Source of the DNA: Magnolia sinica
Lineage: Eukaryota; Streptophyta; Magnoliopsida; Magnoliales; Magnoliaceae
Assembly (NCBI RefSeq): GCF_029962835.1
Contig: NC_080578.1
Coordinates: forward strand, 28,723,001-28,787,000
Direction: 5' to 3'
Length of the DNA: 64,000 nucleotides
Shown: one piece after another, positions 7,228 to 55,166 of the stretch
How the letters are laid out: every line of letters begins with the position of its first letter
Numbering within the stretch: position 1 is the stretch's first letter
The notes under the pieces: model-generated
What the model was told of the DNA's origin: nothing
Seen by the model: the letters and a program-made list of their open reading frames with translations, nothing else
Databases searched by the model: none
Made by a program: the position numbers and the translations under genes

Positions 7228-10200
7228 TGTCACGGCCCAAACTTGAAAAACGGGCTTACAAAATTCTGGATCGCCGAATCCGGGGCCGACAGCCTCCGTA
7301 GTGCCCCATTCTTGGATCCCGACACTCACATGCCAGATTCCGATCCTGGGTCCTACAAGGAGGATTTTCAGTATGAATTTTTTTTTGTAATAGAGCATAA
7401 CCACAAGCATAACCAAGTCATAAAATAACATCACCACATATCCACAATATCAAAAACTTTAAGTACAAAGCAGGAAGGGAAATACAAGGTGATCAAAAAG
7501 CTCTAAAATGATCAGATGCGCGCTCCTACCTCAACGCTGCTGCTGTCCAACGCTACCTGCACGCAATGGTCATGCATAAGCTTACAAAAGCTTAGAGGGT
7601 GGTGTAAGTATGTGCGCAAGGCAAGCGCCAAGTGTATGATATCAGAGTAATGCGGAAAGGTGCGATAAGTCCATGAATGCTATCAGGTGTACCAAAGCTA
7701 AGTGATGTAAGGCATGAATGCTATCAGCCATACCAAGGCCATGCGATGCGAGGCTTATGTAGCCAACGTCATATGCGAGATGCAAAATAAGCATGTCAGT
7801 CCTCATCAAGTACACATATCAACACAGTTCCCCTCTAGATATCACCGGGGTCTAGGACACTCACACTAACTACCTCCTCCCTAGCTGCACAGCCAAGCAA
7901 GTGGAAGAGACCACAATATCCGTCTGACCAGTAGTCTGCCAATACCTACCCGTCTCCTTGATAGCGGACTCATTTGTGAGCTGGTCAAACACAGCCTAGC
8001 TTATAGCCCCCTCACTCGGGTGGATAAGGCCACACCCCCTTCCAACCGACCACGACACAGTGGGAGACAGACCTACTAGTATTCGGCACTTGGGCGCTCG
8101 TGTGTCCACTCGGTCTAGGCATTAGAGTATCCCCTGGTACCAAAAAGGTTCTAAAATTTTCACCCAAGGACATCCTAAGTGCCCACAATTTAGAGCCAAT
8201 ATTTTCGGTATCCGATACGACCATCCACGATGTGCCTGTGGAGGCCACGCCCCTAATGTCGCTAGGGCGTGCAGTGATCAAGTCACACATATGCGGAATG
8301 CATGAGTCACATCGTCAAATCATGCAGCAATACTGCGCATACCACGCACTCATGTGGGGGCACTCTGTCTCACAAGGAGTCCCATAAATGTCTCAGCCCA
8401 ATGGCTTATGCTATGATCAAACATTCTTCATATCAAGCACACATATGATGCGTATGGGCATGAATCATGGAGCTATACTAAGCATGTTATAATGTGATGA
8501 ATTATCCTTACAATGCAGATGGGCCTAAACGGCCTACATACAACAAGTACGGCCTATCAATGGGCCCTAGGGAGAGTCATAATGCGGACATTTAACTAAC
8601 ATTATACTTGCAATGTGGACGTCAAACCAACATTGCTCCCAAGGCATAGCCTATCATAAACATCATTACCTAAACCATGTTGGGATCACACATTGCAATG
8701 AACCTTAGGTACTTCCCATTGGGCCTTCAATAAATCAAATGGGCCATATCACATGGGCCTTATATTCATCAAGTGGGCCACATCAATGGGTCGCACCAAT
8801 GGGCCTTATGTACATTGCAATGGGCCATAACCCATGGGCCTTAGAATGCATCAAAATGGGCCTAATCACATGAGCCTCATATATATATCAAGGTGGGCTT
8901 CGATGGACAGCCAAAAATAAATCAAGATGGGCCTCATTACATGAGCCTTACATTCATATCAAGGTGAGCCTCAATAATGGCCTTATACACATCGAGGTGG
9001 GCCTCAACCAACGGGCCATGAATATGACAAGTGGGCCACCTCGCATGGGCCATATGTATATCAAATGGGCCACACCAATTGGGCCCCATGCATATCAAAT
9101 GGGCCATACCCAAAGATGAGTGGAAACCACTATGGCTCTTAAGAAGTTTGAATGGTGGAGGTCACTGTCCACTATTTTAAATAGTGGGGTTCACTTGAAC
9201 TTTAGATCTGACTCATTCTTTAGCTCATGCCATACAATGAGCTTTCAAAGTGGATGGATGGTTTGGATGCAACACATGCATCATAGTGGGGTCCACTATC
9301 CGTCTAGCAGCCAGCGAAATGGCTGGACGACATGATAAAACACATACATTAAAGGTGGGTTCCACCGTCCACGACAGTGGACAGTGTGAATAAAACACAT
9401 ACATTACTATGGGCTCCACTGTCCGCCTAGACGGTGGGAATAAAACACATGCATCATTGTGGGCTCCGCATGGGGCCTACCGACTACCCGCTCGCCTGGT
9501 GCAGGCCCAGTCTGTGCCTCTAACAGCAGCAGCAGCAATGCTGCTGTTGTATCTCCTTTTTTTTGAAGAAAGGTGGTTTTTCTCAAGTGGGGCCTGTACC
9601 GGCAAAATCCACCCCGCCCACTAGCTTCCATGGTTCAAAACAAGCCGAACGAGCCCAATATCTGCTATTTTTTGGTGTATAGAAACGGCAGGGTGGTTTT
9701 CAACGGTAGAAACCATTGTTTTATATGTTATGGCCCGCTAAAAGATCGGATTGGGCCCATTTTTCAGCTTAACGCCTAAAATGGTCTGAGGAAAAGGTGG
9801 ATTGAATACATACATCAAGGTGGGTCCTATATGAATGGGCCACCCCATAAGCTTGGAAACAAGCTAATATTTGTGATTTCCCCCATTCACGTCCAGCGTC
9901 CCTGGATGCTGGACGGGTTGGGTACACACGTAGGTGAGGTGGGCCCTGCTCAGGTGGGCCACCACATGATGGATGGTGTGGGTACAATGCATATAAAGTG
10001 GGCCCCACTTATAGATGGCTTGGATAAAAGTCATGCCTCATGGTGGGGTTCATCCTGATGGGCCACACAACCACATCATCCTCACATGAAAAGAAAATGA
10101 AAAAGAGAGGGAGAGAGAGAGAAAGGGATCCCGACACTATGGGCCCTCCCTTGAAATCGATCATACATCGAATGGGTCCCATTACATGTGGACCCATCAA

Positions 10201-15933: not shown

Positions 15934-18900
15934 TGTCACACCCCAAACTCAGAAAATGGGCTCACAAAATTCTTGATCGCCATATCCGGTGTCGACAGCC
16001 TCTGTAGTGCCCTATTTTCGGATCCCGGCACTCACATGCCAGATTACAATCTTGGGATCCTACAAGGAGGATTTTCAGTATGAATTTTTTTTTGTAATAG
16101 AGCATAACCACAAGCATAACCAAGTCACAAAACAACATCACCACATATCCATTATATCAAAAACTTTAAGTACAAAGGGGGAAGGGAAATACAAGGTGAT
16201 CAAAAAGCTCCAAAATGATCAGATGCGTGCTCCTGCCTCAATGCTGCTGCTGTCCAACGCTACCAGCACGCAACGATCGTGCATAAACTTACAAAAGCTT
16301 AGAGGGTGGTGTAAGTATGTGCGCAAGGCAAGCGCCAAGTGTATGATATCAGAGTAATGCGGAAAGATGCGGTAAGTCCATGAATGCTATCAGGTGTACC
16401 AAAGCTAAGTGATGCAAGACATGAATGCTATCGGCCATACCAAGGCCATGCGATGCGAGGCCTATGTAGCCAAATGTCATATGCGAGATGTAAAACAAGC
16501 ATGTCAGTCCTCTTCAAGTACACATATCAGTACAGTTCCCCTCTAGATATCACTGGGGTCTAGTACACTCACACTGACTGCCTCCTCCCTAGTTGCATAG
16601 CTAAGTAATTGGAAGAGACCACAATATCCGCCTGACCAGTAGTCTGCCAATACCTACCCCGGCCCGTCGATAGCGGACTCATTTGTGAGCTGGTCAAACT
16701 CAGCCTAGCTTATAGCCCCCTCACTTGTGCGAATAAGGCTACACCCCCTTCCAACCGACGACGACACAGTGGGAGACGCAGCCTACTGGTATTCGACACT
16801 TGGGCGCTAGTGTATCCACTCGGTCTAGGCGTTGGAGCATCCCCTGATATCAAAAAGGTTCTGAGATTTTCACCCAAGGACATCCTAAGTGCCCACAATG
16901 CTAGAGCCAATATTTTTGATATCCGATACGACCATCCACGATGTGCCTGTGGAGGCCATGGCCCTGATGTTGCTAGGGTCTGTAGTGATTAAGTCACACA
17001 ATCGTCAAATCATGCAGCAATCCTGCACATACCACGCACTCATGTGGGGGCACTCCATCTCACATGGAGTCCTGTAAATGTCTCAGCCCAACGGCTTATG
17101 CTATGATCAAACATTCCTCATATCAAGCACACATATGATGCATATGGGCATGAATAATGGAGCTATACTAAGCATGTTATAAAGTGATGAATTATCCTTA
17201 CAATGCAGATGGGCCTAGACGGCCTACACACAACAAGTACGGCCTATCAATGAGCCTTAGGGAGAGTCGTAATGCAGACATTTAACCAACATTATACTTG
17301 CAATGTGGACGTCAAACCAACATTGCTCCCAAGGCATAGCCTGTCATAAATATTATTACCTAAACCATGTTGGGATCACACATTGCAATGAACCTTAGGT
17401 ACTTCCCATTGGGCCTTCAAAACATCAAATGGGCCATATCACATGGGCCTGATATTCATCAAGTGGGCCACATCAATGGGCCGCACCAATGGGCCTTATG
17501 TACATTGCAATGGGCCATAACCCATGGGCCTTAAAATGCATCAAAATGGGCCTAATCACATGGGCTTCATATATATATATATCAAGGTGGGCTTCGATGG
17601 ATAGCCAAAAATAAATCAAGATGGGCCTCATAACATGGGCCTTACATTCATATCAAGGTGGGCCTCAATAATGGCCTCATACACATCGAGGTGGGCCTCA
17701 ACCAACGGGCCATGAATATGACAAGTGGGCCACCTCGCATGGGCCATATGTATATCAAATGGGCCACACCAATTGGGCCCCATGCATATCAAATGGGCCA
17801 TACCCAAAGATGAGTGGAAACCATTATGGCTCTTAAGAAGTTTGAATGGTGGAGGTCACTGTCCACTATTTTAAATAGTGGGGTTCACTTGAACTTTAGA
17901 CCTGACTCATTCTTTAACTCATGCCATACAATGAGCTTTCAAAGTGGATGGATGGTTTGGATGCAGCATATGCATCATAGTGGGGTCCACTATCCGTCTA
18001 GTAGCCAGCGAAATGGCTGGACTGCATGATAAAACACATACATTAAAGGTGGGTTCCACCGTCCACGACAGTGGACAGTGTGAATAAAACACATACATTA
18101 CTGTGGGCTCCACTGTCCGCCTGGACGGTGGGAATAAAACACATGCATCACTGTGGGCTCCACATGGGGCATGGGGCCCACCATAATGTTTACCTGCGAT
18201 CCAATCTGTTCATGAGGTCATGCAGACCTGGACGCTGAGGAAAAATAAATTTCATCTTGATCCAAAACTTCTGTGGCCCATAAAAGGGTTTCAAGGGCAG
18301 ACGTACAATCACCACTGTTTCCAATGATGTGGGCCACCTGAGTCTTGGATGTGGCTGAACTTTGGAGGGGACCCACTTCAGGAAGGAGCCCACCACACGA
18401 ACGGGTTGGATGACAAATATACATCATGGTGGGGCCCACAGCTGGAGCCGTGGGTCCCTGCCTACCGACCGCCCGCCCGCCTGGCGCAGGCGCTGTCTGC
18501 GCCTCTGACTGCAGCAGCAGCAATGTTACTATTGTATCTCCTTGTTTTTTTTAAAAGAAAGGCGATTTTTCTGAGGTTTTTTTAGGTGGGGCCTGCACCG
18601 GCAAAATCCACCCTGCCCACTGGCTTCCATGGTTCAAAACAAGCTGAACGAGCCCAATATCTGATATTTTTCGGTGTATATAAACGGCAGGGTGGTTTTC
18701 AATGGTAGAAACCACTGTTTTATATGCTATAGCCCGCCAGAAGATCGGATTGGCCCCATTTTTCAGCTCAACGCCTAGAATGGTCTGAGGAAAAGGATGG
18801 ACGGTGTGGATTAAATACATACATCAAGGTGGGGCCTATATGAATGGGCCACCCCATAAGCTTGGAAACAAGCTAATATTTGTGATTTCCCCAGTTCACG

Positions 18901-19126
18901 TCCAGCGTCCAGGGACGCTGTACGGGTTGGGTACACACGTAGGTGAGGTGGGCCCTGCTCAGGTGGGCTACCACATGATGGTTGGTGTGGGTACAACGCA
19001 TATAAAGTGGGCCCCACTTATAGATGGCTTGGATAAAAGTCATGCCTCATGGTGGGGTTCATCCTGATGGGCCACACAACCACATCATCCTCACATGAAA
19101 AGAAAATGAAAAAGAGAGGGAGAGAG
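15934..19126 (-). repeat. 5' LTR of Tekay-like element, truncated
   Basis: It begins TGTCACACCCC and follows the left LTR closely up to the AGAGAGGGAGAGAGAGA stretch (10103-10120 in the left copy), where similarity ends abruptly at about 19126. Relative to the left LTR it has an extra block of about 300 bp (18167-18470). The missing outer end explains why no right-hand target duplication is seen. The GGCCCA-rich array recurs at 17205-17810. Confidence 0.85.
17205..17810. repeat. GGCCCA-rich array, second LTR copy
   Basis: The counterpart of 8515-9115, with the same unit order and small differences in the dinucleotide runs (for example TATATATATATC near 17570). Confidence 0.8.
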
Positions 19127-19386
19127 AGATGTCTGTGATACTAATTTTTCTTGAGAAATGCGTAGATTGTAGTCATCCATAAGCCTCTTAAAGGGCTACT
19201 CTATTGGGTTCTCAGCATACAAATGTAGTGGAATATAATACAATACAATTTAATCATGAGATCCATCATAAGAATCTGTCTTCGTTTACAATAATATCAA
19301 ATTTCTACAATATAATAATATGTATAAATGGTTGAGATAATACCTGTACGCGATGTACACAAAAGAGATGTCTGTGATACTAATTT
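19125..19386. repeat. 23-bp direct repeat at an LTR truncation point
   Basis: The two copies, at 19125-19147 and 19364-19386, are identical over 23 bp and enclose 216 bp. The left copy overlaps the exact point where the Tekay-like LTR loses similarity to its sister. This suggests double-strand break repair with a templated duplication. Confidence 0.75.
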
Positions 19387-23089: not shown

Positions 23090-24390
23090 ATCACCACTTA
23101 TATTTGAGCGTGGCCCATTTGATATACATGGGGCCCATTAGTGTGGCCCATTTTATGTATGTATGACCATGTTATGAGGCCTACTTTAATGTATGTTGTG
23201 GCCCATTTGTCAGGCCCACTTTGATGTACTTTTATCCACGCCATCAAGGGTAGGCACCCCATTATGATATATATCAGGGCTCATGGGTCGAGGCCCATTA
23301 GTGCTGCCTATTTGATACAACCCACTTGATGTGTACGAGGCCCATTGATGCAAGGCCTATTGTGACATGTATTGGGCCCATGATGCGTGACCCATTTGAT
23401 GCGTATAAGACCCATGGGTAGGGCCCACATATTATGTATTTGAAGCCCATGAGCAGGGCCCACCTGAGGTTTATATATGGGCCCCATTAATGTGGCCCAC
23501 TTGTATTTGAGGCCCATGGGTTGTGGCCCATGGGTCGTGGCCCATTGTGATATATACTCGGCCCATACGTCGTGGCCCATTGAGATGTGTTTTCGACCCA
23601 TTTAGTGAGGCCATTGTGAAATATTCCTACTCATGTGATGAGGCCCATCGAGATGTATTTCTAGTTCATTGATGCGGCCCAATGATGCGACCCACCGTGA
23701 TGTGCATATTAGGTTAATGGTGCAGCCCAATGTATCGACCCACGGTGATGCGTAGGCCCACGTGCTACATGTGTAAGGCCCACCTGTGATGACTATTTGA
23801 GGCCACCTGTCGGATATTTGGGCTCACCTTATATTTGACTCTACTTGGGCCACTACTTGGGAGCAATGTTGGTTAAATGTCCACTTTGATGGGCGATGAT
23901 GGTTGAATGTTCATATTGTGACCTTCCCATAGGCCATGTTCGACCAATCAGCGAGGCTGATTATTGATCGATTCTGATTGACGTGACTGATTTACCGATT
24001 CTGATTATCGAGTACCGATTATGATTGTTGTGGTCGATTGGCCGATTATCGATCAAGGCCAATCATCGTGGCCGATTGTGGATTCCGATTGTGATGTATA
24101 TTCTGTCCGTAGGTTGAGGCCCACTATGATGTGTAAAGGCCCATGGACGTGGCCCATTGTGATGTATATGTAGCCCATGTGATGTGTATTAGCCCCATGT
24201 GACACGGCCCATTATGATTGTACGAAGCCCATTGTGGTGTGTTTGAGGGCTAGGCTATGGAGCCATTGTGTTGTATGTTAGGCCCATGTGAAAGGCCCAT
24301 CGTGATATGTATTAAGCTCTTGAGTAAGGCCCATGGTGTTCTATATTTGGTCCTTGTGTGAGGTCATGGGTCCACTATATGTTAGGATCC
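23090..24390. repeat. GGCCCA-rich tandem array in the solo LTR
   Basis: Degenerate units such as GAGGCCCATTGTGATGTATA repeat for 1.3 kb, the reverse complement of the arrays at 8515 and 17205. A different block near 23940-24110, built on 'ccgattatcgatt' units, is embedded in it. Confidence 0.8.
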
Positions 24391-26299
24391 ATGAGGGCTA
24401 TTCCTTGGGGGGCAATGTTGGTTAAATGTCCACATTGTTGGGGTCGATTGTCAATGCCGGTTGCTGATACCGATTATGAGTATGTGACAGCATAGCATTA
24501 TGATACATGCCTATATGCATCATCTGCATGTTTGTTATGAGATGTGGTTGATCATTGCATATGTCATTGAGCATGTTGTTATGAGACTCCCTGATAGGCG
24601 GAGGTTATCTCACTTGAGCACGCAGTATGCACAGGATTGATGCATGACTGGATTGTATGACTCATGCATCTCGCATTATGATTACTATATGCCCTAGCGA
24701 CACCAGGGCCGTAGCCTCCACAGGCGTATCGTGGATGGCCAAATGGGACACCGGAAATATATTGTTCTAGCATACGGGCGCCATAGATGTCCCTGGGTGA
24801 AAATTTCTAAACCTCCGTGGCCAGGAGACGCCCCAACGTCGAGACCGAGTGGATACATGAGCGTCGGAGTGTTGAATACCAGGAGGTCGCGTCTCCCACT
24901 GTGTCAGGGTCGGTTGGGAGGGGGTGTGGCCTTACCCACCCGAAGGTAGGGGGTAATACTAGGCTGAGTTTGACCAGCTCGTGAATGGGTCCGCTATCGA
25001 CATGCCGGATAGGTATTGGCAGACTATTGGCCAGGCGGATAGTGAGGTTTCTTATGCTCACTTGGACTATGCGGCTGGGAGAGCGGCAGTGCCATTTGGA
25101 GTGTACTAAACCCCGGTGATGATCTCAGAGATGAACCGTACTGATATGTGGACTTAGTGAGTAAGAGTTGCATAATCATTCATTCATTCATCATTCACTA
25201 TCCACTCGGGCTGGTGGTGCGTAACTATTTGTTACGTGTACCTTCATAATGGCCAGGATTTCGGTTGGGGCGCGCGACTAACCTGAGATCAGGAGTTTAC
25301 CACATTGGGTCTGACCATCCAAATTAGGTATGAGACTAGTTTGGATAGAAGTTCATTGTGATGGACCCCATGGCCTGTGATACTACGTACTACCATACCG
25401 ACTTCACACTCCAGCATGGTCATTCCATTTGCATTGCATGTTGCATTACATCCGCAGCATATGGTATGGTTGATGCTATTCATTTTACTTATCAGGAATG
25501 TATATTGCATTGCATCCTCTGCATCTGATATTTGGCTCTCTACGACTCTTCATTTGCATACTGATTTGTATTGTGTATTTTAATATTGTATGATTTATGC
25601 ACTTATCAATATTTCCGCTTACTCTGTTATCGTGTGATTTATGACTTTGTCAGTATTTCTGTTTACTCTGATAATTCCTGCCCTTGTCAATATTTCTACT
25701 TATTCTGATTATGTACGATTTATGGATTACTAGTATTTCCGGTATTGTATAATGATGGCATTGTATTGAATACTTGGCACTTACCTTGTGCACACACTTT
25801 CACCACCCTCTAAGCTTTTTATAAGCTTATGCACGATAGATGCGTGCAGGTGTTATTAGGTTGCAGCAGCGTTGAGCTTGGAGCGTGCAGTTGTATTCTG
25901 GAGCTTTGATTTCGATATATGTAATTTTTCCTTTCAGCATTGTACTCAAATGATTATATTAGTGGATATGTGATGATGATATTGCCTTTGTGAATTGGGT
26001 AATCTTATGGTTATGCTTATTATGAGTTAAATGTACAAAAAAAAATCCTCCTTGTAGGATCCCAGGATCGGAATCTGGCGTATGGATGCTAGGACCCGAG
26101 AATGGGGTACTACGGAGGCTGTCGGCACCGGATTCGGTGATCGGGATTCCTGCGAATCCGATTTTCCAGGTTTGGGGCGTGACACATAAACCGATACCAA
26201 GTCAGTTCCCGCTGGTGGAGACTGTCCATCTTGACCCAAGTCAGTCCCCTCTAACAAGAAATTACATATGGTGTAGGATACCACGGCTCACGCGGAAGT

Positions 26300-32259: not shown

Positions 32260-32860
32260 GATCCATGTGATGTGTCCCACTTGATGTACATGAGGTCCAT
32301 TGGTGCGGCCCATTGATGCGGCCCATTGATGATGCCCAATGTGATGTATTTATGGCCCATTGATAAGGCCTAATGTAATGTATTTATGGCCCATTGATGA
32401 GGCCCAATATGATGTTTTATGGCTCATTTGATGAGGCCCGATATGATGTATATGTAGCCCATGTGATTCGGCCCATTATGATGTATATGTGGCCCATGAG
32501 TGGGCCCGACGTGTTGTATATGAACCCATGAGTGAGGCTCGACATGTTGTATGTGAAGCCCGTGTGAGTGTCCCATTGTGATGTATATTAGGCCCGTCTG
32601 AGCGGCCCATTGTGATGTATATTAGGCTCATGTGGGCGGCCCATTGGGATGTGTATTAAGCCCATGAGATGCGGCCCATGTAATGCGGGCCATTATGATG
32701 TATTTGAGGCCTAGATATCAGGCCTAATGTAATGTATATGAGGCCCATATGGTGAGGCCCGATGTGATATATATGTGACCCTTGAGTGAGGCCCATTATG
32801 ATATATGTTAGGCCATTGTGTGTGGCCATGGGCCCATTATATGTTTAGCCCTATGAGGGC
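32260..32860. repeat. GGCCCA-rich tandem array
   Basis: Units such as GCCCATTGATGAGGCCCAAT and 'tgatgtatatgtggcccatg' repeat for about 600 bp. This is the same array class as 23090-24390, but half as long. Confidence 0.8.
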
Positions 32861-35099
32861 CACTCCTTGGGAGCAATGTTGGTTGAATGTCCACATTAAT
32901 GGGCAATGATGGTTAAATGTCCACATTGTGATCTTCCCTTAGGCCTCGTTAGGCTGATTATTGATGCCGATTATGAGTATGTGATAGCATAACATCATGA
33001 TACATGCCCACATGCATAATCTGCATGTTTGACATGAGATGTGGTTGATCATTGCATATACCATTGGGCGGGTTGTTATGGGACTCTCTGATAGATGGAG
33101 TTGCCCCACATGAGCGCGTGGTACACGCAGGTTTGATGCATGACTGGATGGTATGACTCATGCATTTCATATTTTGTGATATGACCACCGTATGCCCTAG
33201 CGACATCAGGGCTGTGGCCTCCACAGGTACATCGTGGATGGCTAGATGGGACACTGAAAATGTTTGGTTTTAGCATACGGGCGCTATAGATGTCCATGGG
33301 TGAAAATTCCTAAACCTCTGTGGCCAGGAGATGCTCCAACGTCTAGACCGAGTGCATACATGAGCGCCTGAGTGCCGAATACTAGTAAGCTACGTCTCCC
33401 ACTGTGTCGTAGTCGGTTGGAAGGGGGTGTGGTCTTACCCGCCCGAGGGTAGGTGACATAACTAGGCTGAGTTTGACAAGCTCCTAAATGGGTCTGCTAT
33501 CGACATGCGGGGTAGATATTGCCTAACTACTGGCTAGGCGGATAGTGAGGTCTCTTCCACTTGCATGGTTATGCCTCCATTGGGCGGCGATTGCGTGTAG
33601 AGTGTACTAGGCCCCAGTGATGATCCCAGAGATGTACAATACTGATATATGGACTTATTGAGTAGGAGTTGCATACTCAACATTTTTACTCATTCATTCA
33701 TTCACTATCCACTTGGGCTGGTGGTGCGCAACTAATTGTTATGTGTACCTTTGCAATGGCCAAGATTGTAGTTGGGGCACGTGCCCAACCTGAGTTCAGG
33801 AGTTTACCACATTGAGTCTGTCTATCGAAATTTAGGTATGAGACTGGTTTGGATAGAAGTCCCTTGTGATGGACCCCATGGCCTGCGATACTATGTACTA
33901 TCATCCTGGCTTCACACTCCAGCTTGGTCTTTTCATTCGCACCGCATATTACATTACATCCGTGACATATGGTATTATAGGTTGCTACGTTTTTGCATTT
34001 ATATGGCCTAGATACGACTGACGGTATTCGTGGACTCATCAGGATTTGCATATTGCATTGCATCTCAGTATATGATATTTGGCTTACTATGTCTCCACAT
34101 TGCATAACTGATCTACATTGCTTCCTGAGTATATGATACTAGCTAATTATGTTTTTACATCGCATAGCCTGGATAAGGCTGATGGTATTTATGGACTTAC
34201 CAGCATGTTTCCACATTGCTCTGAGATTGCATATTTAACACTTATCTTGCGCATACACTTACACCACCCTCTAAGCTTTTTATAAGCTTATGCACGATAG
34301 ATGCGTGTAGGTGGCGTTAGGTTGTAGCAGCGTTGAGCTTGGAGCATGCAGTTGTCTTCTAGAGCTTTGATTTTTGATATATGTATTTCCCTTTTAGTAC
34401 TATATTCAACTGTTTATATTAGTGGATATGTGATGATGATTTTGCCTTTGTGATTTGGGTAAACTTATGATTATGCTTCTTACAAGATAAATGTACGTTG
34501 AAACATCCTCCTTGTAGGATCCAAGGATTGGAATCTGCTGTATGGGCGCTGGAAGGTGAGAATAGGGTGCTACGGAGGCTGTCGATACTGGATGCTGCGA
34601 TCGAGAATTTTGTGAGCCCAGTTTCTGAGTTTAGGGTGTGACATTACCGATCCGAACAATCCCAAAAACTGTCCTTCAAACCTTAGCAATGCTCTTAAAC
34701 TCTTAGTAATGTCTTAAAGAACCCTAATCATACCCTAATCCCAATTACAAATCGTGCACTTACGGAGAACTACGTGCACCTTCAATGGGACCTTTGATGA
34801 CATCGACACTCATTGAAGACTAGTTGATGACATCAAAGATCTTTCGATGCCATCGAGTAGTAACCTCTAAAAATATCCAACAACTAATTTTGATTTTTTT
34901 TTTTTGGAATTTTTCGATGGGATTGAGCATTTGTTGATGGCATCGACGTCATTCACTTCTACGTGATTGGATCGAGTAGTCTGTCAATGACATTAACAGA
35001 CAAACAATTTTAAGACATTAAACAATAATTTCCACCATGTCTTCAATCTTATACTCCATTGCTCCTTACTACCACTATCTCTAATCGCTTTCTATCATA

Positions 35100-36919: not shown

Positions 36920-39900
36920 TGTAACGCCCTGAAATTCGGGGGTCGAGCACAACTCAGCTCCCGAGTTCCAAAACATCACTTATGCAACATATTTAATGAT
37001 GAATGTATGTTGACTGTATTAGTGCATAAAACATGGAATAGATTAAGCCAAAACACAAATATGATTCAGGGATAAGTGAATAAAACAAGCGGAAGACTTA
37101 TAGTAAAATGTGTACAAGTGTAAGTCCCTGAAGTACATATACAAGCCAGGTCGAATGAAAGTGTTATTTAACAAAATTATAAGTATCAAGTTACATCATT
37201 TCATATCCCAAAAATAATCCCAAAGATCCCGCGCATCAGATCGAGGCTCGCTAGAACCCATCTGAAAACTCCATATAGGAGAAGGCAGCCTCGTCGTCAT
37301 CCAGCTCCCGCTCTGCCTCAGATGTCGCATCCACATCTGCAACATCAAGGCCTAAGACAGAGTCTGGTGGGTGTTTAACACCGCCCCAGAAACGTGGGAG
37401 TGAGTGATCAACTCAGTGGAACAATAAGGCACTGGTTAACATGTTATCAGTTCAATCAAATAGTAATGATAAAGCAGGACAATTAAATAAATCCTAAGTA
37501 CTCTTGTTAATGCAAGTATGAATGCGGTATGATGCGTGCCCTCACGCGTACACCCTCAGCGTCTTCATCTTACGTTACACATGACATCGCCTCAAAGTGC
37601 GCCACATCTACAAAGCACATGCAAATGCGGTGCATGGATATGATTACCAAGTTGTTATTAGTCCGTTTCACACAACAGGATTGGGAAGCTAAGATACCTT
37701 CCTCATATCACCATCCAAACAGTGATCCATACTAGGGTCGTCAATCCTAGACATCTTATACGATCATATATTTGAGGTCGTAGCAAAGGGCTCGTCACCA
37801 ATCAATGCACGCCTTTCATGCCTTTACTACCACAATTTGGCTCGTCACCTCCTTGCGGTATCCAGGTATGCTCGAGGTCACTACAAAGGGCTCGTCACCA
37901 ATCAATGTAGGCCGACAGCACGAATATAGTGTCCCATACCACCATAATCGGCTCACGAGTTTAATTGCTCATTGGTCACTACGGGGAGGCTCGTCACCCG
38001 AGCGTAGGCCGACAGCTCGACCACGGTGTCCCATACCACCATGTCCGGCTCATGAGTCTAAGCAGATCAAGTACCATAGTTAATAGGATGTCACTGGTAA
38101 GTTCGGTACCCTAGATTCAAGCAGTAGCGTCCATACATGGTTAACATACATCGGACAATCGGGTTATTTGACGAACTCGACTAGCATGAGCGCACGTTGA
38201 GTTGAGCGACATAGAGTGCGCAAACACTCCGCGTGGCCAAACCACTGCCGACAACTTTAATACGACTCGGGTTCGTCTAATACATCCTACGTGGCGAAAG
38301 CAATCTCAACCACGCATATAGGGTCAATTACCGATTTCCTAGACTAATGCATAGTCCCAAACACTTTACACTACTACAGATATTCATATGGAATGTAAGA
38401 CAGTAATGGAACAACAACTCAAATCATGGTACATACGCATCTGAAGAATATCAACATAACATAAATGTAAGCATAGGTAATGCTTGAATTTAAATAACTT
38501 GGAATGTAACTGCATAAAGGAAATCATGCGCATCAATAGGAGTATTGAGAATCACTTCTCAATGCCCACAATTAGTGTAATAAGTTACACTTAGATCATT
38601 CATGCATTTCTACAAACACTTAGCATACATGGAACAACATACATGACGGATGTTGAAATACATGCACTTAGGTAATTCCTTTTACTAAGGAGTTGTCATA
38701 CATGCATCTAGCATATATACACGACAAATAATCATGACAAACACAAGTGCATATTTTATACGTATACGGTACTTTATAAATACACATAGAATACACAAAT
38801 CTCAATATAGCACATGCATATCAGGAAAGCAACGTAAACATAACATTTGGCATGTGAAATCTCATCCATAACAAGAATAAATCACTAACTGGTGTTGAAA
38901 GCCTTGAAAACCATAACCTATACACTTAAAGTCCTCACCTTAAGCGAAGAAAGAACCACCGAACTGATTTAGACGAGTTGTCTTCGTCAACGGCGTTAGA
39001 ATACCCTAGAACAAAGATGGAAATGAGATACAACAACACCAAGTCTAATCTAAGCTCTAACACAGGTTAGGGTTAGGTTAACTTACCCCAAAAGAACTCA
39101 GAACCGTCAGAAGAACGATTCAAAGTGAAGGTTCAAAGATAAAGAAGAACAAGGAGGAATCCAAGGTGATTCACCAACTTATCTCTCTCACTTTCTCTCT
39201 CTTTTCCACTCTCTTTCCAAGCTAGGGTTAGAGAAAATCGTATGGAAAAGAGGACTAGGGTTTAAGGACTATAAATAGGCCTATTCTTGATGAAAATAAC
39301 CCTAGGGACAAGGTATACTTAGGTTATAACCAAAGTAAGCCTTTCTCGATCCAACGAAGCACTTCTGGTGGGCTTATAATCACGAAAGGTCGGACTTAAG
39401 CTCACTGACCATGGATCTAGGTCAGGCTGAGTTTTCATACCGACCGGCTCTTCAGATCAGCCGTGACGGACCACACTCAATTCAACGGTCACGGAATCTC
39501 GATCAGGTCCACAAGCACTAGGATATGCCTGGGCCAACTATCCTGATCAGAGGGTGAAATTGGGTCAGAATCCAACTGTCAAATAGCTTAAAATCGTCAC
39601 GTAAGCGACACGACTCAGATTTCATAAAAGCTAAATAAATTCCAACCGTTCTCACACTCTTCACTCCGAACACAAGCAAATCGACCCAGAACATCACATG
39701 GACTTGATTTTCGAGGAGATGGTCAAGCCCAACTCGGTGACCGCAACAGCCTAAGATCAACGCGCGGTCCAGGTCCGATCTAAATCTTCCAAAAATTCCC
39801 CAGAACAACTGGATTTAGCGATGGATCCCAGGTTTCAGAGTAACGTAGTGCTCACTAATCTACACGTTTAGAGCCATGCAGATACAATTTAAAGTGATTG

Positions 39901-39994
39901 ATGCGGATTTCACAAGAAATCGAGTAAAGCGCTAATTACCCCAAAACAACTACTTAAGGAAAGATTAGCACAAAAAATTCCAAGGTCGTTACAA
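36920..39994 (-). mobile_element. Solo LTR, family B (3.1 kb)
   Basis: It starts TGTAACGCCCTGAA and ends GGTCGTTACA, with a perfect target duplication AAGTG at 36915-36919 and 39995-39999. From 37665 on it matches 1-2346 of the window closely. No pol sequence is present. A TATA-like CTATAAATA at 39269-39277, with an AAACCCTAG leader beside it on the minus strand, suggests minus orientation; that call is tentative. It interrupts the Copia pol between integrase and RT. Confidence 0.9.
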
Positions 39995-45735: not shown

Positions 45736-45744
45736 TGTTTCATA

Positions 45745-45775
45745 CACTACCAAAAAATCGAGCAACGGCTACGGA
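45745..45775 (+). repeat. Left terminal inverted repeat of the CACTA element
   Basis: It starts CACTACCAAAAAA and pairs with 54935-54965 at 25 of 31 positions. The ATA just outside at 45742-45744 is the target duplication. Confidence 0.92.
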
Positions 45776-45850
45776 CTTTGAAAGTTTTTGGCTACAGATT
45801 TAATCCGTAGCAATTATGCTACAGATCTAATCCGTGCCTAAAACCTAATT
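45763..45850. repeat. Left sub-terminal CACTA repeats
   Basis: Three or so copies of a motif like GGCTACAGATTTAATCCGTA, in both orientations, within 90 bp of the end. In CACTA elements such motifs bind the transposase accessory protein; that role is inferred from the family. Confidence 0.8.
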
Positions 45851-48800
45851 GATTCGTACCTATAGCCTACCTCCTCATCATAGTTGTATTAGATATTGAT
45901 GGTGCTAAAGTGGCTCCATGGGGCCCATTGAAATATTTGTGTTTGATCTAAGCCATCTATAAATTCTTATATAAAATTTCAGTGGATTAGGCCAAAAATT
46001 ATGTAGATTAAAGGTCTAAGTGGACCACACAATAAGAAATCATAAAAATTAAATTTCTATTGTTAATATGTTGTGTGGTCTTCTTACAGCTTCGATCTAA
46101 CTCATTTTTTGCATTAACCCTTAAAATAATATTTTAAAATTAATGGACGGAGTGGATAAATAACATACATCATGGTGGGCCCCAAGGTTGTAAAACCCAC
46201 GGCTTAAAGGCCGTCCATCACGCGCCCCTCGCCCAAAATGAAATCCAATTCCGTCAGCCCTTTTCTCCCACGCGCAGACCTTCCAAAACCCCATTTCCAT
46301 TTCCCTCTCTCCATCTCCCAGGCTCCCTCACCCCCTCTCTCTCTCTCTTGCACTCAGCCTCTCCCTTTCCCTTGTCCTCTCTCTCCAACCACGATCTATT
46401 GTTGCCGAACGCCCTACTCATGCATGGCCTCTCTCTCTCTCTCTCTTTGAAGCTCAGTTGAAGGGTAGCTCATTCACGACCTTGAGGTATTTCTCTCTCT
46501 CTCTCTCTCAATCACTCTCAATCTCAATGCCGATTAAGGGATTTGGGGATTTAGTAATTTGTGGATTCCTGATTCTATGTGGACCATCATTTAGGGATTT
46601 GGGGATTCTAGGGCTTACAGATTTGAATGTGGACCCCGAATTGTTGTTTTTTTGATTTTATAAATTAAGGATTTTAGAATTTTACACATGTGGGGCATTT
46701 GGTGAAATGGAAACCACATTTCCAGGAAATTTACAAAAACAAATGAAGTCCTTAATTATATTTCAACAAATCCAAATAGGCCCTAAGTTTCAGTGGCATA
46801 TAGTGATGACCCATCACTCCAGAGACACATTTCCACTTTGTTCTGATTCAGTTGGAAACATCCTAATTTAATGATGATGATTACATTGAACTGTGATATG
46901 TCAATGTGGGTGATAATGGACAGATCTTCGATAAATGTATGATCTTTATGTTGTGTTATTAGTATATGGTTGTCTGTGGATGTTCATATTTTCTGTATCT
47001 CATCTTATAAGATTTGCAGGTGAAGAAGACACTCCCATCAAGCTCTTCATGCATTTGAATCTCCTTGTAAGCATTCTTCTTTCATTTTTTTTCCAAGGCT
47101 TTTAAATATGAGCTTAAAGACGAGCATCAAGTGAGATTTTCATGGAGAACGTTACATTGAACATCCATCCTAGGTATCTTTCTACTTTCATTACAACCAG
47201 AGATTTATTTCGTATATTATAATTAAATATTTGAATATCATTTTATACAAATTTTACAATTTATTTTTGTACTGCATCTCCATTTCAGGCAAGAACACCA
47301 AAAAGCTTGGCATTTGGGGTTAATGAAGGTCCTGTTCTAGCTTGACAAAAAAGTTACTAGACATAGATATCTATCCAAGGTGCCCAACCTGACCCAATCG
47401 AGTTTAGGTGGTTTGTAGAAGCCAATCCTTTTTAGTCTAATATCTTAACATTGTAACTATTGTGCCCACTTGGCTGGGCGGCAATGAACTGTGATTGGTC
47501 CTACCTTGGCCGTGGTTCCCTAAACCATGGGCTTGTCCGTAATGGAACTAAAATTCCTTTGGTATTGGTGCTAGCCTTATATGCAATAAGTAAAAGAAAA
47601 AGTATCAAAGATCAAAGTTTTGAAATAATTTAAATTGAAAAAATAAAATTAAAATCAATGTATCTCCTCCATCCACATACATCTTACACCTGCACATCAT
47701 ATGTTTGATTAAATTCCTTAAAGAATGTTTAGCACATCAAATTTTTTAGGTCTGCATTACGTACTTTTTATATACCTAACGCATTTGCAAGTTATAACTG
47801 ATGCTGGTGTTAAACATCAATCTGTTGTTCACATGTTGCCTGGCTATTCACTTGGTCCTTATTTCGTGTATATATTGTGGAGAAAGACATCTAACAGATG
47901 TTTAACTTCATGGAGTGATGAAGTCTCATGGTTATGTTTTCCTTCTGTGTCCACATTGCCCATTCATGTCAAAATATGCCCTCTTTTGTTGGAGGTAAGC
48001 TACTAGCAGGTATGGGGCTTCTGTGATTTAGATTAGTGGATTCCTTGTTATTCTTTTTCATGGTCTTGTTGCATATTTTTCCCTCTGGTATCGATCTATG
48101 TTGTGTTGTGTTAAGTCAAATGCATGATGAGTATTGATTATTTCCTTATAGAACATCATTGAGTTCAAGTTCAATTCGATTTTGATCTAGTTGCCTGACT
48201 TGTATTGACTCTTGTGAATGCATGTTGTGTTCGAGCTTTGACTGGTGAACTTTCATGTTCTAAATAAAATGGTATTCTTGTGTTTTTGGTGAACTGACCC
48301 ATTTCACTGAGGAGTTTCAGTCCCAGCCAAAACCCGTCCTGTTTCAGTGATGAGTTCTGATCCCAACCAATCCGACAGTCTGGTCCATTCCAGGTAAGTA
48401 AACACTAGTCATTGCTGAGGCTCATCAAACAACTTACTTCTATGATCCCAATTACCAACAGGACTGTCAGGACTGCACTGGACACTGGTTTTGGGGTATG
48501 CTGAATTCTTCTAAATGCCTTTTCAGTTCATTCCATTTCACACACTTACCACCCACTGTCTGAGAAAATCACTCTTATTCTTGTTTTTAGCATGATATAA
48601 CTTTGTGCTTAGCATCTCCAAACTTTAGTGTCAGGTTGAATTCGGCCAAGAGATTTTTATGGTGCTTAGCTTGTTGTTTGGTTTTTGGTTTAGAAACTTG
48701 ACACTTGCACATGCTTCATATTAGTCGAAGCTCGAATTGTTTTAATTTTTAAATCTTGTTAATTTTGAAAAGCTTCTCCATATTTATCTTTTTCATCTGA

Positions 48801-48955
48801 ATGCATTTTAGATTGTATTGGATGGTATCATGGTTTTATTGATGTTAAGTTTTACCTACTTGTCTCCTCTCTTATTCAACTATGGAATGTGGGTTTTTTT
48901 TTTGTGTGTGTGTGGTTTCTTTTGTAAGAATAATACTTGATATATTTGATTCTAG
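45851..48955 (+). other. CACTA interior, left part: leader-like CT-rich DNA, no recognised gene
   Basis: 46200-46500 is GC- and CT-rich ('cacgcgcccctcgcccaaaatg', several CTCTCT runs) and looks like the promoter and 5' leader of a plant gene. Exon-like pieces with splice-type borders follow, for example 47030-47066 between 'tttgcag' and 'gtaagc'. The open stretch 47725-48006 resembles nothing I know. This may be a fifth captured gene start, but I cannot name it. I see no transposase. Confidence 0.35.
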
Positions 48956-49056
48956 GTAGATCTCCTTTTGTCATATGGCTATGAAGATGCCTTAAAAGCC
49001 CTCATCCCACATGTCCCTCAACGCTGCCAATGCCTTCTCATGCCTGCTACTTCAAG
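48956..49056 (+). pseudogene. Captured exon of a DEAD-box RNA helicase (RH16-like)
   Basis: Bordered by 'ttctag' and 'gtatgg', this 101-bp exon reads VDLLLSYGYEDALKALIPHV and then PQRCQCLLMPATSR. It matches the segment from the DEAD box to motif III of plant DEAD-box ATP-dependent RNA helicase 16, the DDX56-type helicase of ribosome assembly, whose usual form is DLLLSYGYEDDLKAL...LLMSATS. Motif III, normally SAT, is PAT here. The DEAD box itself should sit just upstream but is not in this exon. The reading frame is open throughout. It is a fragment of about 34 codons from a protein of several hundred residues, so it cannot act as a helicase. The source identity is recalled from family knowledge and should be confirmed by alignment. 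Confidence 0.8.
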
Positions 49057-49468
49057 GTATGGTATCTCAATTCTTTGTGTACTGGATTTGAAAGCTCATT
49101 CCTTTTCATTCATCACTTACTGCTACCAGCTTTTAAAGTTCATATCTATGTTCTTGTACTACTTTAAAAAAAGTTCATGGAATACTTTAATGGCTGTCAA
49201 TGTCAATAGCCTTAAATGGTCATGTAGAAGAAATCAATTATCCCTATTTACAAGTGTGGGCATGGTCCAGTGATCCAGCTTGTTGATCTGATGGGCCATC
49301 TTGGATGGAATGTACTCCAACAATTCTGGTTAATTTTTAACCAAGTTACTGATTAAAGTCAGCCAAGTTGGATGGAGTCAATCTGACTGGGTCAGTTTTT
49401 AGTACATGACAATTTTCAGGATACTGCATTAGTTGTAGTTTATCAACTGACTTGGAAACTGTGCACAG

Positions 49469-49679
49469 GTTGCAAGCTGGGGTGCTTACTTGTTGAAAAG
49501 AAATGTATTGGCAATGTCCTTTGCACTGAGGGACTCACACGAGGCACAAGTGCAATTTGCTTTGGAAAGAGGTGTGCCTGCAGTTATTAGTGTGCTTGGA
49601 ACCATACAGCTCCCTTACCCATCTAGAGCCTTTAACATGGCTCACTGTTTGCATTGCTTAATCCCATGGGAAGCAAATG
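49469..49679 (+). pseudogene. Captured exon of a PMT-type (DUF248) methyltransferase
   Basis: The exon begins after 'gtgcacag' and ends before 'gtgact'. It reads [19 protein letters not shown], then [19 protein letters not shown], then [20 protein letters not shown]. This is the Rossmann-fold core of the plant putative S-adenosyl-methionine-dependent methyltransferases called PMT (DUF248, QUASIMODO2 relatives). They are Golgi membrane proteins linked to pectin methylation. Paralogues usually read RAFDMAHCSRCLIPWGAND, so this copy has N for D, L for S and E for G in a conserved stretch. The frame is open over about 70 codons. The N-terminal membrane anchor and the C-terminal half are absent. 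The fragment follows the helicase exon by 412 bp on the same strand. Confidence 0.88.
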
Positions 49680-51254
49680 GTGACTTAAAATAACATATGA
49701 CTTAGATTATGTACCAGCTAACAATAGAGCCATTTTTATTAGGAAAAAAAGCCATACTGCAGGTTCTAAACTTATCGTTGTCTTCACACACTTTCATCTC
49801 CACGTTCTCATCTCTACAACACCCAAATCTCTGCTCATGCTGCTTTCTAACTGCCTAACAATTTGCCTCATATAACATGCTGGGTCCTCTTTTCTTCTTC
49901 TTCTTCTTCTTCTTCTTCTTCTTTTTTTCTTTCTTTCTTTTTTTTTTTCTTTTTTTTTTACTGCTTTATAAATTAAATTTGTATGCCTGTGTATCTTTCA
50001 ACGTTATAATGTTAACTTTACAATGAATCTTGCATTGAGAATCTTGTTAACCTTTTCCAAGTTGCTCCTAAATTTAGTCCAATCAACTCGTGGTAATTGA
50101 GTAAGCCCTTTTCTATTGGTGGAGCTATTTTAACAAGTATATGAAATTTTAGTAGATGAACTCTTCTTCCAAGGTGTCGCTGGTGCTGCATGCGATTAGA
50201 ACTTGGAACTGTAGGGAGCAACCTAGATCTAAGTCTCTTCATAACTTTTTGTTGATTTTATGCATGTCTTCTATATTCTAGGACTTATCTGGCAGTTGCT
50301 GGTTAATCTTCCGGTACTGATACAACCAGATATGGTTATTCATCTGGGATTTCTTTCTGATGGATCTACTTACACTTGTTTACATCAAGAAAATCTTAGC
50401 TGCGGAAAACATCTATTAACATCCTTTTGGAACTCAAGAGTGCAAAAGATATTCATAAGACACTGATATGCGATGCTCTTCACACTGTGATTGGTTGACC
50501 TCATTGGTGGAGCCTGTACTTCCCTTCTTATAATTCTTCTAAAAATGTCAACAGTGGCCAGATTTGGTGTTATCTATTAATACCTTTAAAGTATATGGAT
50601 CTCTAATAACTTCAACTTCCAAGAAGCATTTAATTTGGCAGGGTGCTATTTGCTTTAGTTTGTTGCTCATACTGATTATTAATATTAGATATGATAACCA
50701 GTAAAATCTGATGCATTTGTTGATCGCAACATACATGCTTTATTGCTCATTCTGACTATTAAGATTAGAGATGGCATAGCTTATTCATACATGGTTCATG
50801 CTCGATCTTATCATGTCACCTTCAGAAAGCACATGAAAGTCTAGTTCGAAATTGGTGAATTTGTCTGAAGCAAACCATTATGCCCCATTCATTTCTTCTG
50901 TTAAGAGTGGGATATGAACCCATGCTATTTGATTTCTGTTATGTTAAATGCTCAGTGCTTTAGCCATTCTGAGCATCATGGAAGCCATTAATGATGCATA
51001 GGCATGCTTTTTATATGTTCTTTGCTGACTACTGAGGAATACAATCCAAAATAAGTCCTAAAGACTTGATTGGATTTCCTTACTGTATTTCTCCATTAGA
51101 AAGTTGGGAATTTGTTGTCATTTGTGTCAATTGAAGCTTTCCCACTGATACATATGGAACATCTTTCCTAGATTCCCTCCTTGGACTGGAATCCAAGTTT
51201 CATGAAGCAGTTGATGATTCTTGATGCAATATCCTACACTCCTCCCATTTGCAG
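49680..51254. other. CACTA interior between methyltransferase and EPSPS fragments
   Basis: This holds a TTC microsatellite followed by a T-rich tract (about 49889-49960) and an exon-like open stretch after 'ttctag' (50281-50466, reading LIWQLLVNLPVLIQPDMVIH) that I do not recognise. The last 150 bp before 51255 look like the natural upstream intron of the EPSPS exon, ending in 'tttgcag'. Confidence 0.4.
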
Positions 51255-52905
<1,651 letters not shown>

Positions 52906-54192
52906 AATCCTAGGTATGTGGATCCACTCAATATAACTGCAATGACATGTCCCACACTATCGTTATGCCCTCTGGCAATAGCAGAAGCAGAGCGTGGAAT
53001 TCCTGACATTCTCAAGTGGGTTCGAGCTGTATTTGATAAGGCAAGCCATAAAGCTATATACTCATTCATGTTTTTTTTTTTTTTTTTGTGTAATTCAAAA
53101 TTGAATAGAAAATTTGCATCAAACCTATTTTTCCATGGGGTCACCGAGACACTTGAAAATGGTGTTTTGTTGTTACAGGTTGGCCTCAAGTACAATAAGT
53201 CAATGGTAATAAGGGTAACTGGATGCCCTAATGGTTGTGCCGGACCTTATATGGCTGAGCTTGGACTGGTTAGCGATGGACCCAACACGTACTAGGTATT
53301 TCACATGCTGATTTTGTCGAAACCCTAGAAATAAATGTATCATAGATGAGTTATATTCTTTTACAAGGATAGGTACCATGTAGTTGCCAAAATGGTGATT
53401 TAAGCACGACATGTCCTGTCCGCCCCCCAAAATGGGGAAAAAATCCCAAACAAGCAGGAACACTGAAATGTCCTTCTAAAGATCCATTACAGGATGTCTC
53501 TTACAAATCTTTAAAATAGGACTTATTTTAGAAGGATGAATGATGGGGTACTTTTACATGTTTCAAATAGGTCTGGCTCGAGGGAACGCCTAACCAAACC
53601 TCACTAGCAAAATGTTTCATGAATAAGCTGAAGATTCATGATCTAGAAAAGGTTTTGGAGCCATTGTTCAACAACTGGAGGTGCAAATGCCAACATGGAG
53701 AATCTTTCAACGATTTCACAACCCGCCTGGTGAGTACCCAAGTTTGTATTTGGGTCATGTTATTTACAACATCTGAATTACTTCCAACCATACTTGCAAC
53801 TTGAATTATTTCATGGGTTTTGGGATATGAAATTTAACGAATGTCTGATCATTTTTAAAAGAACACTACCACAGAAAATTTCTATATCAGTAGTGTCTCA
53901 ATGCTTGGTTTTGCCCCATTTTCATCTACATATCATTCCTGGGGCAACTAATAAAAAATCTGAACGGTTCTATACTGGCAAAGTAAGCATACATTAAGTT
54001 TCTTCCTGTCCTATGCAGGGTTTTGACAAACTGAAAGAGACAGTTGAGAAGTGGGAGGGCACAGCAAAGGCACCAGCACGATTTAATCTAAAGCTTTTTG
54101 CTGACAAAGACACATATGAAGCCATGGATGAACTTGCAAAGCTGCAGAACAAGACTGCTTACCAGCTGGCCATGGAAGTCATCTGCAACTAA
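52906..54192 (+). pseudogene. Captured 3' part of ferredoxin-sulfite reductase, four exons
   Basis: The exons are 52906-53040, 53179-53295, 53571-53729 and 54019-54192, all in phase 0. They carry [20 protein letters not shown], then [20 protein letters not shown], then WLEGTPNQTSLAKCFMNKLK, then FNLKLFADKDTYEAMDELAK, and end MEVICN-stop. This is the C-terminal third of plastid sulfite reductase, which reduces sulfite to sulfide with ferredoxin. The four cysteines that hold the 4Fe-4S/siroheme centre (C-x5-C and C-x3-C) are all kept. The first intron begins GC rather than GT. Exon 2 ends TAC TAG where relatives have a Q codon, so a spliced reading would stop there. The protein ends about ten residues earlier than its relatives. 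The N-terminal two thirds are absent. Confidence 0.93.
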
Positions 54193-54233
54193 AATGAAAG
54201 TGTTTCTCTTGCCTTGCTTCAATCTGAGGCAGC

Positions 54234-54500
54234 TCATATGAGTCTAGATAATGGTTCTTGGTTCACCATTGCTGAATGATCTTGTAACTCTTCACCATTA
54301 GTACATGAAGCTTCATCTTCCACTGAAAGATCTTCCAGCTCTAGAAACTGATTGATTACTGCGGGATCTTTCGACTCAGATCCATCGAATGAGACCATGT
54401 GATTTTGTTGGATAGTAGTAGCATTGGCAGCATCATAGGTATCCCCAACACTAGAATCTTGCATTTCCTTTTTCAGGATCTTTTGACTTAGATCCATCAA
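54234..54500 (-). CDS. Unrecognised acidic open stretch, antisense to captured genes
   Basis: Eighty-eight codons open on the minus strand, starting MMDLSQKILKKEMQDSSVGD and containing FLELEDLSVEDEASCTNGEE. It is strongly acidic and serine-rich, with no membrane segment or motif I know. Its composition looks more like real coding sequence than the other antisense ORFs here, so it could be an exon of another captured gene inserted in reverse. No function is assigned. Confidence 0.25.
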   Translation of the reverse strand: MMDLSQKILKKEMQDSSVGDTYDAANATTIQQNHMVSFDGSESKDPAVINQFLELEDLSVEDEASCTNGEELQDHSAMVNQEPLSRLI

Positions 54501-54509
54501 ATGAGATCA

Positions 54510-54635
54510 TGTGATTGTAACTGAATGAATGAATGATTGTAATTGAATGAATGAATGATTATGCAGGTGGTAATTGAATGAATGAATGAGTGATTATGCA
54601 GGTGGTAATTGAATGAATGAATGATTATATTTTTT
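54510..54635. repeat. Short tandem repeat, GAATGAATGAATGATT type
   Basis: Four degenerate units of about 25-40 bp with 'gtaattgaatgaatgaatga' and 'ttatgcaggtg', next to the right sub-terminal repeats. Confidence 0.8.
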
Positions 54636-54649
54636 TAAATGTAGGTCAT

Positions 54650-54934
54650 AACTACGGATATTAATTGTAGTTGTTAATTTGACAACCATAGCTATTATAA
54701 AATTCGGCATATTGCTATAGATTCAACACTACTTTTAGCTACCAATAATATCCGTAGCTGTAAGTGCCTTTGGCTACAGAAATATTTGCTACGGATTATA
54801 TCCGTAGCTATTTTAAGCTATGGCAACGGATTAAATCCGTAGCCATAGGTTTTAGACCTATTGGCTCGGCACCTACGACGATGGTCATGCTACGGATTTA
54901 ATCTATAGCCATAGGTTTATGGCTACAGATTAAA
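54650..54934. repeat. Right sub-terminal CACTA repeats
   Basis: At least seven copies, in both orientations, of GCTACGGATT..ATCCGTAGC-like motifs, several joined as near-perfect palindromes (for example GGATTAAATCCGTAGCC near 54828). They are far more numerous than at the left end, a common asymmetry in CACTA elements. Confidence 0.85.
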
Positions 54935-54965
54935 TCTGTAGCCTTTGCCCATTTTTCTGGTAGTG
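54935..54965 (-). repeat. Right terminal inverted repeat of the CACTA element
   Basis: It ends TTTTTCTGGTAGTG, the reverse complement of the CACTACCA end, and is followed directly by the target duplication ATA (54966-54968). Confidence 0.92.
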
Positions 54966-54973
54966 ATATTACA

Positions 54974-55166
54974 TGTTGGGGGTTACGCAGAAGCAAACCC
55001 AAATCCAATCAAACAAGAGGAAATTAAACGTAAACCAAAACACAGAGAACACACGAATTTTATGTGGAAAAACCCTCACAAGAAAAAAATAATAGCATAA
55101 AGTGACAAATAATCCACTGTAAAAGTAATATTAGAAGAGATGGATGGACTTACTAATCCGAACAAC
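54974..55166 (-). repeat. Part of the 5' LTR of the split Copia element
   Basis: It starts TGTTGGGGGTTACG and shares 'gcaaac..ccaatcaaac', 'aaacgtaaacc' and 'gacttac' with 30225-30395. It is interrupted at 55167 by a Gypsy LTR, with candidate target bases ACAAC at 55162-55166. The rest lies beyond the window. Confidence 0.75.

Follow-up and report, generated by a model that had tools for sequence, protein, structure and literature searches.

The stretch of Magnolia sinica DNA analysed here (64 kb, called the window below) contains, at positions 45745-54965, exons of several unrelated host genes lying between two inverted ends of the CACTA type. The locus raises the question of how pieces of genes from different parts of a genome came to be joined in one place, and whether they form a mobile unit, the debris of rearrangement or a new gene. 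An earlier note on this DNA had proposed a single Pack-CACTA transposon holding fragments of four host genes. The analysis described below gives the following answer: 45745-54965 holds a single transposon, as that note had it, namely a 9221-bp non-autonomous member of the CACTA (En/Spm) superfamily. It is not solitary, however, and belongs to a multi-copy family. Its identity as a Pack-CACTA element with capture at the DNA level is held with high confidence.

The element, its ends and its target site

The terminal inverted repeats (TIRs) are located at 45745-45775 on the forward strand and at 54935-54965 on the reverse strand. Both start with CACTACCA and, when aligned, are identical at 25 of 31 positions, the left end being CACTACCAAAAAATCGAGCAACGGCTACGGA and the right end, reverse-complemented, CACTACCAGAAAAATGGGCAAAGGCTACAGA. 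A motif scan of the element placed forward-oriented palindromic subterminal repeats near both ends, those of the GCTACAGATTTAATCCGTAGC type at 45769-45844 on the left and the right ones at 54652-54942; within these, the GCTACGGAT/ATCCGTAGC-type repeats are confined to 45769-45818 and 54652-54933. Immediately outside the TIRs lies the target-site duplication ATA (45742-45744 and 54966-54968), which was checked against empty paralogous sites. TIRs beginning with CACTA, a 3-bp target-site duplication and subterminal repeats near both ends are the features seen here of the CACTA superfamily; those of a Pack-TYPE element are host gene pieces without a transposase, introns that have been kept and several copies with the same ends at different sites. 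Related to this, six-frame translation of the element gave no Pfam match to a transposase, so that the earlier description of the ends and of the missing transposase holds. Multi-gene capture is best documented in Helitrons and Pack-MULEs, and one of these classes might be considered instead. However, MULEs have long TIRs and target duplications of about 9 bp, and Helitrons have neither duplications nor TIRs, whereas the element has CACTA inverted ends, a 3-bp duplication and subterminal repeats; this alternative can practically be dismissed.

The left flank encodes a Copia-type gag (Pfam PF14223, 5.6e-28). When both flanks, joined with a single ATA, were used as query in a genome search (40 of 2178 candidates scored), the alignment crossed the joint in 35 of 42 rows, and the 7 rows that do not cross it include the element's own two flanks. 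Three paralogous Copia sites were aligned: two of them read CATATTAG, with a single ATA, like the empty target site that the earlier note had suggested looking for at the orthologous copy, and the third reads CAGATTAG. The occupied site in the window reads CATA, the element, and ATATTA. The target Copia is unbroken in its paralogous copies. Besides, the Copia copy that carries the element lacks about 33 bp, starting 5 or 6 bases to the right of the element (54969-54975, compared with L051-L053), among them a region resembling the primer-binding-site motif TGGTATCAGAGC.

The same ends are found elsewhere in the genome, where the earlier note had suggested looking for them. A genome search with the whole element gave at least 70 matches (31 of 6678 candidates scored), and end motifs alike within three mismatches number 884 genome-wide. 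A near-full copy is located at C9:63.17M, with the right-end motif at C9:63183764-63183796. Both ends were read in four copies, and in three of them the 3-bp flanks match: the window (ATA), C2:140.1M (ATT) and C12:27.57M (TAA). These data bear on a second alternative, according to which the mosaic is the work of ordinary genomic rearrangement and a CACTA element merely landed around or beside it, the apparent ends coming from two elements. The interior is indeed a patchwork with many different boundaries, which speaks for such an origin; but the recurrence of the same ends and interior with their own duplications, the near-full copy with its right-end motif and the unbroken Copia target in paralogs speak against it, and it must be regarded as most improbable.

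Captured pieces, their donors and the joins

Donors were looked for in the whole genome (1.84 Gb, 127 contigs). Stretches matched to them cover together 5129 of the 9221 bp, leaving out a 43-bp repeat match, and contain nine exons or exon parts. The four host genes named in the earlier note were recovered, the helicase by one intact exon, but its count of eight exons was too low and a fifth donor has to be added. The donor contigs are C2 (PMT methyltransferase), C11 (helicase), C18 (EPSP synthase), C13 (sulfite reductase) and C10 (fifth stretch). None of them is C6, the contig of the element, and the fragments do not lie together at an ancestral locus. Of the two outcomes that the earlier note named as refuting it, ends from two different elements and an ancestral locus with the fragments in this order, neither was observed. 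All four coding donors have the same sense within the element (positions below refer to the forward strand). The introns of the PMT, helicase, EPSP synthase (EPSPS) and sulfite reductase pieces are colinear with those of the donor genes in the alignments, and therefore the gene pieces were taken up at the DNA level, in agreement with the earlier proposal.

The PMT methyltransferase gene (L061/L057, C2:2.052-2.054M, with a Methyltransf_29 domain) contributed two pieces; Pfam assigned the captured PMT sequence to PF03141 (1e-35). Piece 1 (48423-48785, 88.7% identical to the gene at C2:2.05M) begins with the end of an exon, the second and partial one of the capture, starting at 48423, and continues into an intron; piece 2 (49339-49772, 90.6%) consists of intron, the exon VASWGAYLL... 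and intron. Between them, inside the captured PMT intron and in place of about 170 bp of it, there is an intron-exon-intron piece of a DEAD-box helicase (48775-49254), 91.7% identical to C11:13.361M. Since it is bracketed by PMT sequence, the helicase piece was added within a PMT piece that had already been captured or was copied simultaneously. Of the four donor identifications this one is the least secure, and it is made from the exon sequence: the donor (L059) carries the intact exon ADLLLSYGYEDDLKALIPHVPRRCQCLLMSATSR, by which alone it is known, and gave no Pfam match in the frame scanned. With phmmer against PDB, the exon of the element by itself is weak (E 0.23) and that of the donor reaches 0.0078, with DEAD-box helicases. 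No Pfam family was found above its cut-off for the helicase exon, nor for any of the four sulfite reductase exons taken alone. The piece is labelled RH16-like; no search supplied that name. Another locus, L060, was discarded as helicase source because it carries a PMT-helicase chimera itself.

The fifth fragment (49764-50181), in which no gene was recognised by eye, matches L058 at C10:21.625M and a second locus at C2:0.741M. It is followed by the EPSP synthase piece (50179-51756), composed of introns and two exons (Pfam PF00275, 5.6e-10 and 1.1e-09). Its donor at C18:14.288M (L041, C18:14.287-14.291M) has more EPSPS exons on either side and is 95.4% identical over 50179-50566 and 94.7% over 50563-51756. 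The next stretch, 51757-52597, matches several sets of places with differing boundaries. Finally, 52598-54476 corresponds to the last four exons of sulfite reductase, without the final codons, and to 3' flank; the four exons joined match PDB entry 5h8v (4.6e-65). The locus at C13:5.445M (L056/L062, C13:5.444-5.448M) was taken as the gene because it has the NIR_SIR domain upstream and an intact C-terminus. It is 92.9% identical to the element over 52598-54190 and 93.7% over 54192-54476, and about 275 donor bp, including the last codons, are absent from the element at 54190/54192. L048 was rejected as a source, since its upstream side, viewed by eye, is not that gene throughout and a ribosomal S3Ae piece is present. 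A sulfite reductase intron also holds a cryptic CACTA-like inverted pair, CACTACCA...GTAGTG, just 32 bp long (53864-53895). On the left side of the element, a CT-rich, leader-like stretch (46379-47379) has matches at C3:105.43M and C3:105.84M and a blockwise one at C11:60.80M; it may be a further captured fragment, the 5' part of another gene. Further genomic matches of this stretch are at C19:41.10M and C31:0.136M.

Three joins have both donors known, and by eye each shows a few bases common to donors and element: TCT (PMT-helicase), TTCT (PMT-C10) and GCT (C10-EPSPS). By hand calculation, the chance of 3 bp or more being shared at a random join is about 5%. The 3-4 bp shared fit template switching during repair, as in the gap-filling and fork-switching model for Pack-TIRs (PMC8277862), although three joins are few. 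The interior would then have been assembled from host genes at the DNA level (a PMT piece, the helicase inside its intron, the fifth stretch and the EPSPS piece), the pieces being joined at short shared sequences, probably through template switching while transposon-induced gaps were repaired. A CACTA transposase recognising the ends of the element would have moved it in trans.

Copies and the origin of the two halves

The gene pieces recur at many places in differing combinations. The search with the helicase piece gave 48 rows, which correspond to 47 places including its own gene (46 besides the gene) and one weak match (E 6.8) that was dropped; at 8 of the 47 a sulfite reductase piece lies within 12 kb. 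Conversely, 40 of 141 candidates were scored for sulfite reductase (41 rows, a second row at C2:84.90M being dropped; one place is the gene), and at 32 of these 40 places the 12 kb to either side contain no helicase piece. The right-end motif of the element is found 538-783 bp downstream of at least 21 of the 40, among the 100 of 884 ends listed that were used for comparison with gene pieces; a control pattern gave 0. Because the left half and the sulfite-reductase-bearing right half are thus also found apart at many related places, it is proposed that two elements with similar ends may have fused or recombined. Fusion of neighbouring elements is one natural reading of such combinations, and we give an even chance to the view that fusion or recombination of two elements produced the element in the window.

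The opposite direction has also to be weighed: the 9.2-kb element would be the ancestor, and left-only and right-only elements its deletion derivatives. Internal deletions do occur in the family. Type-B copies (e.g. L012, L013, L017 and L024) have AAG instead of 50658-51685, and since EPSPS intron still flanks the gap left and right and AAG is common to them, they look like deletion products; the idea that they represent a state preceding EPSPS capture was rejected on the same grounds. Deletion is also favoured by the sulfite reductase pieces of L049, L050 and L048, which have in common with the seven type-A copies examined 26 to 28 of the 35 columns separating those copies from the gene; the evidence leans towards a single capture shared by these three loci and type A, as far as columns that cannot be polarised allow. 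However, L049 retains all, and L050 part, of the roughly 275 donor bp absent from the seven type-A copies, so that simple deletion from type A cannot account for these two. Moreover, among the matches listed, places with one half outnumber those with both. An origin of the half-elements purely by deletion is accordingly judged unlikely, though it deserves more weight than the other alternatives treated here.

Several observations weigh against the overall picture of a mobile CACTA element built by fusion. One of the three aligned empty sites (CAGATTAG) does not have the ATA reading, and at C6:38.80M, one of the four copies in which both ends were read, the 3-bp flanks differ. Between the two ends, the motif scan detected no GCTACGGAT/ATCCGTAGC-type subterminal repeats, and a simple two-element fusion might leave some; half-elements could come from deletion as well, as the type-B copies illustrate. 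As regards an autonomous partner, Transposase_21 candidates number 1669 genome-wide and all 150 that were scored are above the cut-off, but among these 150 no candidate came to within 62 kb of any of the 100 ends listed out of 884, both sets covering part of the total.

Other relatives show further arrangements. A sister subfamily (L018, L019, L021 and L025) has a different left end, 72-77% identical over the first 440 bp, and the same interior from about 46448; L024 has this left end too, and its interior picks up again at about 47715. L045 (C16:5562500-5570500), L046 and L047 represent another element family; L045 is a sister element whose right end is related to that of the element in the window. 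The EPSPS piece of L045 is shorter (51132-51695) and stops some 5 bp inside the following intron; a CCR4-NOT piece accompanies it, as do myosin-like and enolase-like matches that are weak and under their cut-offs. L046 is colinear with L045 across 3.4 kb and has the right end CACTACCA. The EPSPS search also gave 19 places (including L047) that match only 51561/51567-51695, the second EPSPS exon. At L048 (C12:73162500-73170000) the sulfite reductase piece stands beside the ribosomal S3Ae piece, and exons resembling a leucine-rich-repeat receptor kinase were recognised by eye; it appears to be another multi-gene mosaic, and a search of the 7.5 kb examined turned up no CACTA end. Tentatively, and with more doubt than for the fusion itself, the large end-family with its 884 motifs might serve as a store of gene-fragment modules that elements exchange (pieces of PMT, helicase, EPSPS and sulfite reductase; CCR4-NOT and others in L045). 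Such modules would recombine between elements again and again as these move, and new multi-gene chimeras would arise mostly via reassortment and rarely by fresh capture.

Decay of the copies and relation to known elements

For the sulfite reductase piece, with CpG columns masked, the mean Kimura two-parameter distance between copies is 0.067 (45 pairs) and that between gene and copies 0.062 (10 pairs); as both values are similar, capture and spread were close together in time. After its multiplication, the family has been decaying neutrally. C-to-T type differences from the donors amount to 128, compared with 64 of the reverse type and 81 transversions, and they affect 38 of 118 donor CpG bases vs 90 of 1756 other C/G bases. 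Such CpG decay is the mark expected of methylated DNA, and the copies are apparently methylated.

A further alternative is that the element is a functional chimeric gene, in which the leader-like 5' region and the exons would be spliced into a new, selected protein. The sense common to the four coding donors, the GT/AG dinucleotides kept at most exon borders viewed by eye and the CT-rich leader-like stretch upstream would suit this explanation. Nevertheless, four pieces would fall into a single sense by chance one time in eight (hand calculation), and the reading frame is broken twice in the window copy: the EPSPS exon reads SGSWD*FLVKG where the gene has SGSWDRFLVKG, and sulfite reductase exon 2 has a stop at its end. 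In 19 of 23 copy rows the exons are the more diverged part (mean 7.0% vs 5.5% for introns), rows from one genomic copy not being independent, and the same holds for 9 of 12 rows when CpG-type positions are masked. Selection on the captured exons was rejected because they diverge faster than the introns; nothing in the sequences suggests a selected chimeric gene, and this explanation is very unlikely.

In the rest of the window there are three pairs of long direct repeats: 2-2347 and 37666-39994 (93%), 7228-10120 and 15934-19129 (90-93%), and 24084-26184 and 32571-34643 (77-82%), the last two pairs being related, with one pair inverted relative to the other. They look like the long terminal repeats of nested retrotransposons; between 10120 and 15934, no Pfam domains were found in three forward frames.

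Multi-gene capture by CACTA elements is already known (PMC1947982, PMC8903248), so the earlier note judged its novelty less well than its structure. According to PMC1947982, the soybean CACTA element Tgm-Express1 (Zabala and Vodkin) likewise contains exons and introns of several unrelated host genes, five in number, and chimeric spliced transcripts were sequenced. Tgm-Express1 measures 5.7 kb and is described in one gene intron, whereas the element in the window has 9.2 kb, many copies and located donors, holds a piece that is nested within an intron belonging to another and is described from its DNA. PMC8903248 presents the Pack-CACTA elements of Arabidopsis, rice and maize as non-autonomous and carrying coding pieces of the host, which often stem from several loci; the capture model put forward there and in PMC13317346 is the fusion of neighbouring insertions with terminal deletions. 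Most of the rice and maize CACTA Pack-TYPE elements have low copy number in that account (PMC8903248), unlike the pieces studied here, which are found at dozens of places and in changing combinations. Maize Helitrons capture several genes stepwise (PMC3288121); the likeness lies in the stepwise gain of several fragments and the internal loss in some copies, but transposon class, ends and mechanism are different. For animal Pack-TIRs, a gap-filling or fork-switching model with a median microhomology of 2 bp at the joins is given in PMC8277862. Short microhomology at joins is shared with the present element, whereas Pack-TIRs are mostly single copy, each derived from a unique parental copy, and the element in the window is a multi-copy one from a plant. 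In the open literature, which leaves most subscription journals outside, no paper was found combining CACTA, EPSPS and gene capture, nor CACTA, sulfite reductase and gene fragments. What is notable here is that the donors are located, that one capture is nested in another and that copies are numerous.

How cut-and-paste transposons acquire host genes is still debated, the two views being template switching during gap repair and fusion of neighbouring insertions. In this genome the coding donors, several joins and sister elements with different subsets of the pieces are all present together, and it is therefore possible to measure in which order the pieces were captured, how much microhomology the joins have and how large a part reassortment plays. 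For annotation, it follows that many loci with EPSPS or sulfite reductase pieces in this genome are transposon copies and not gene duplicates.

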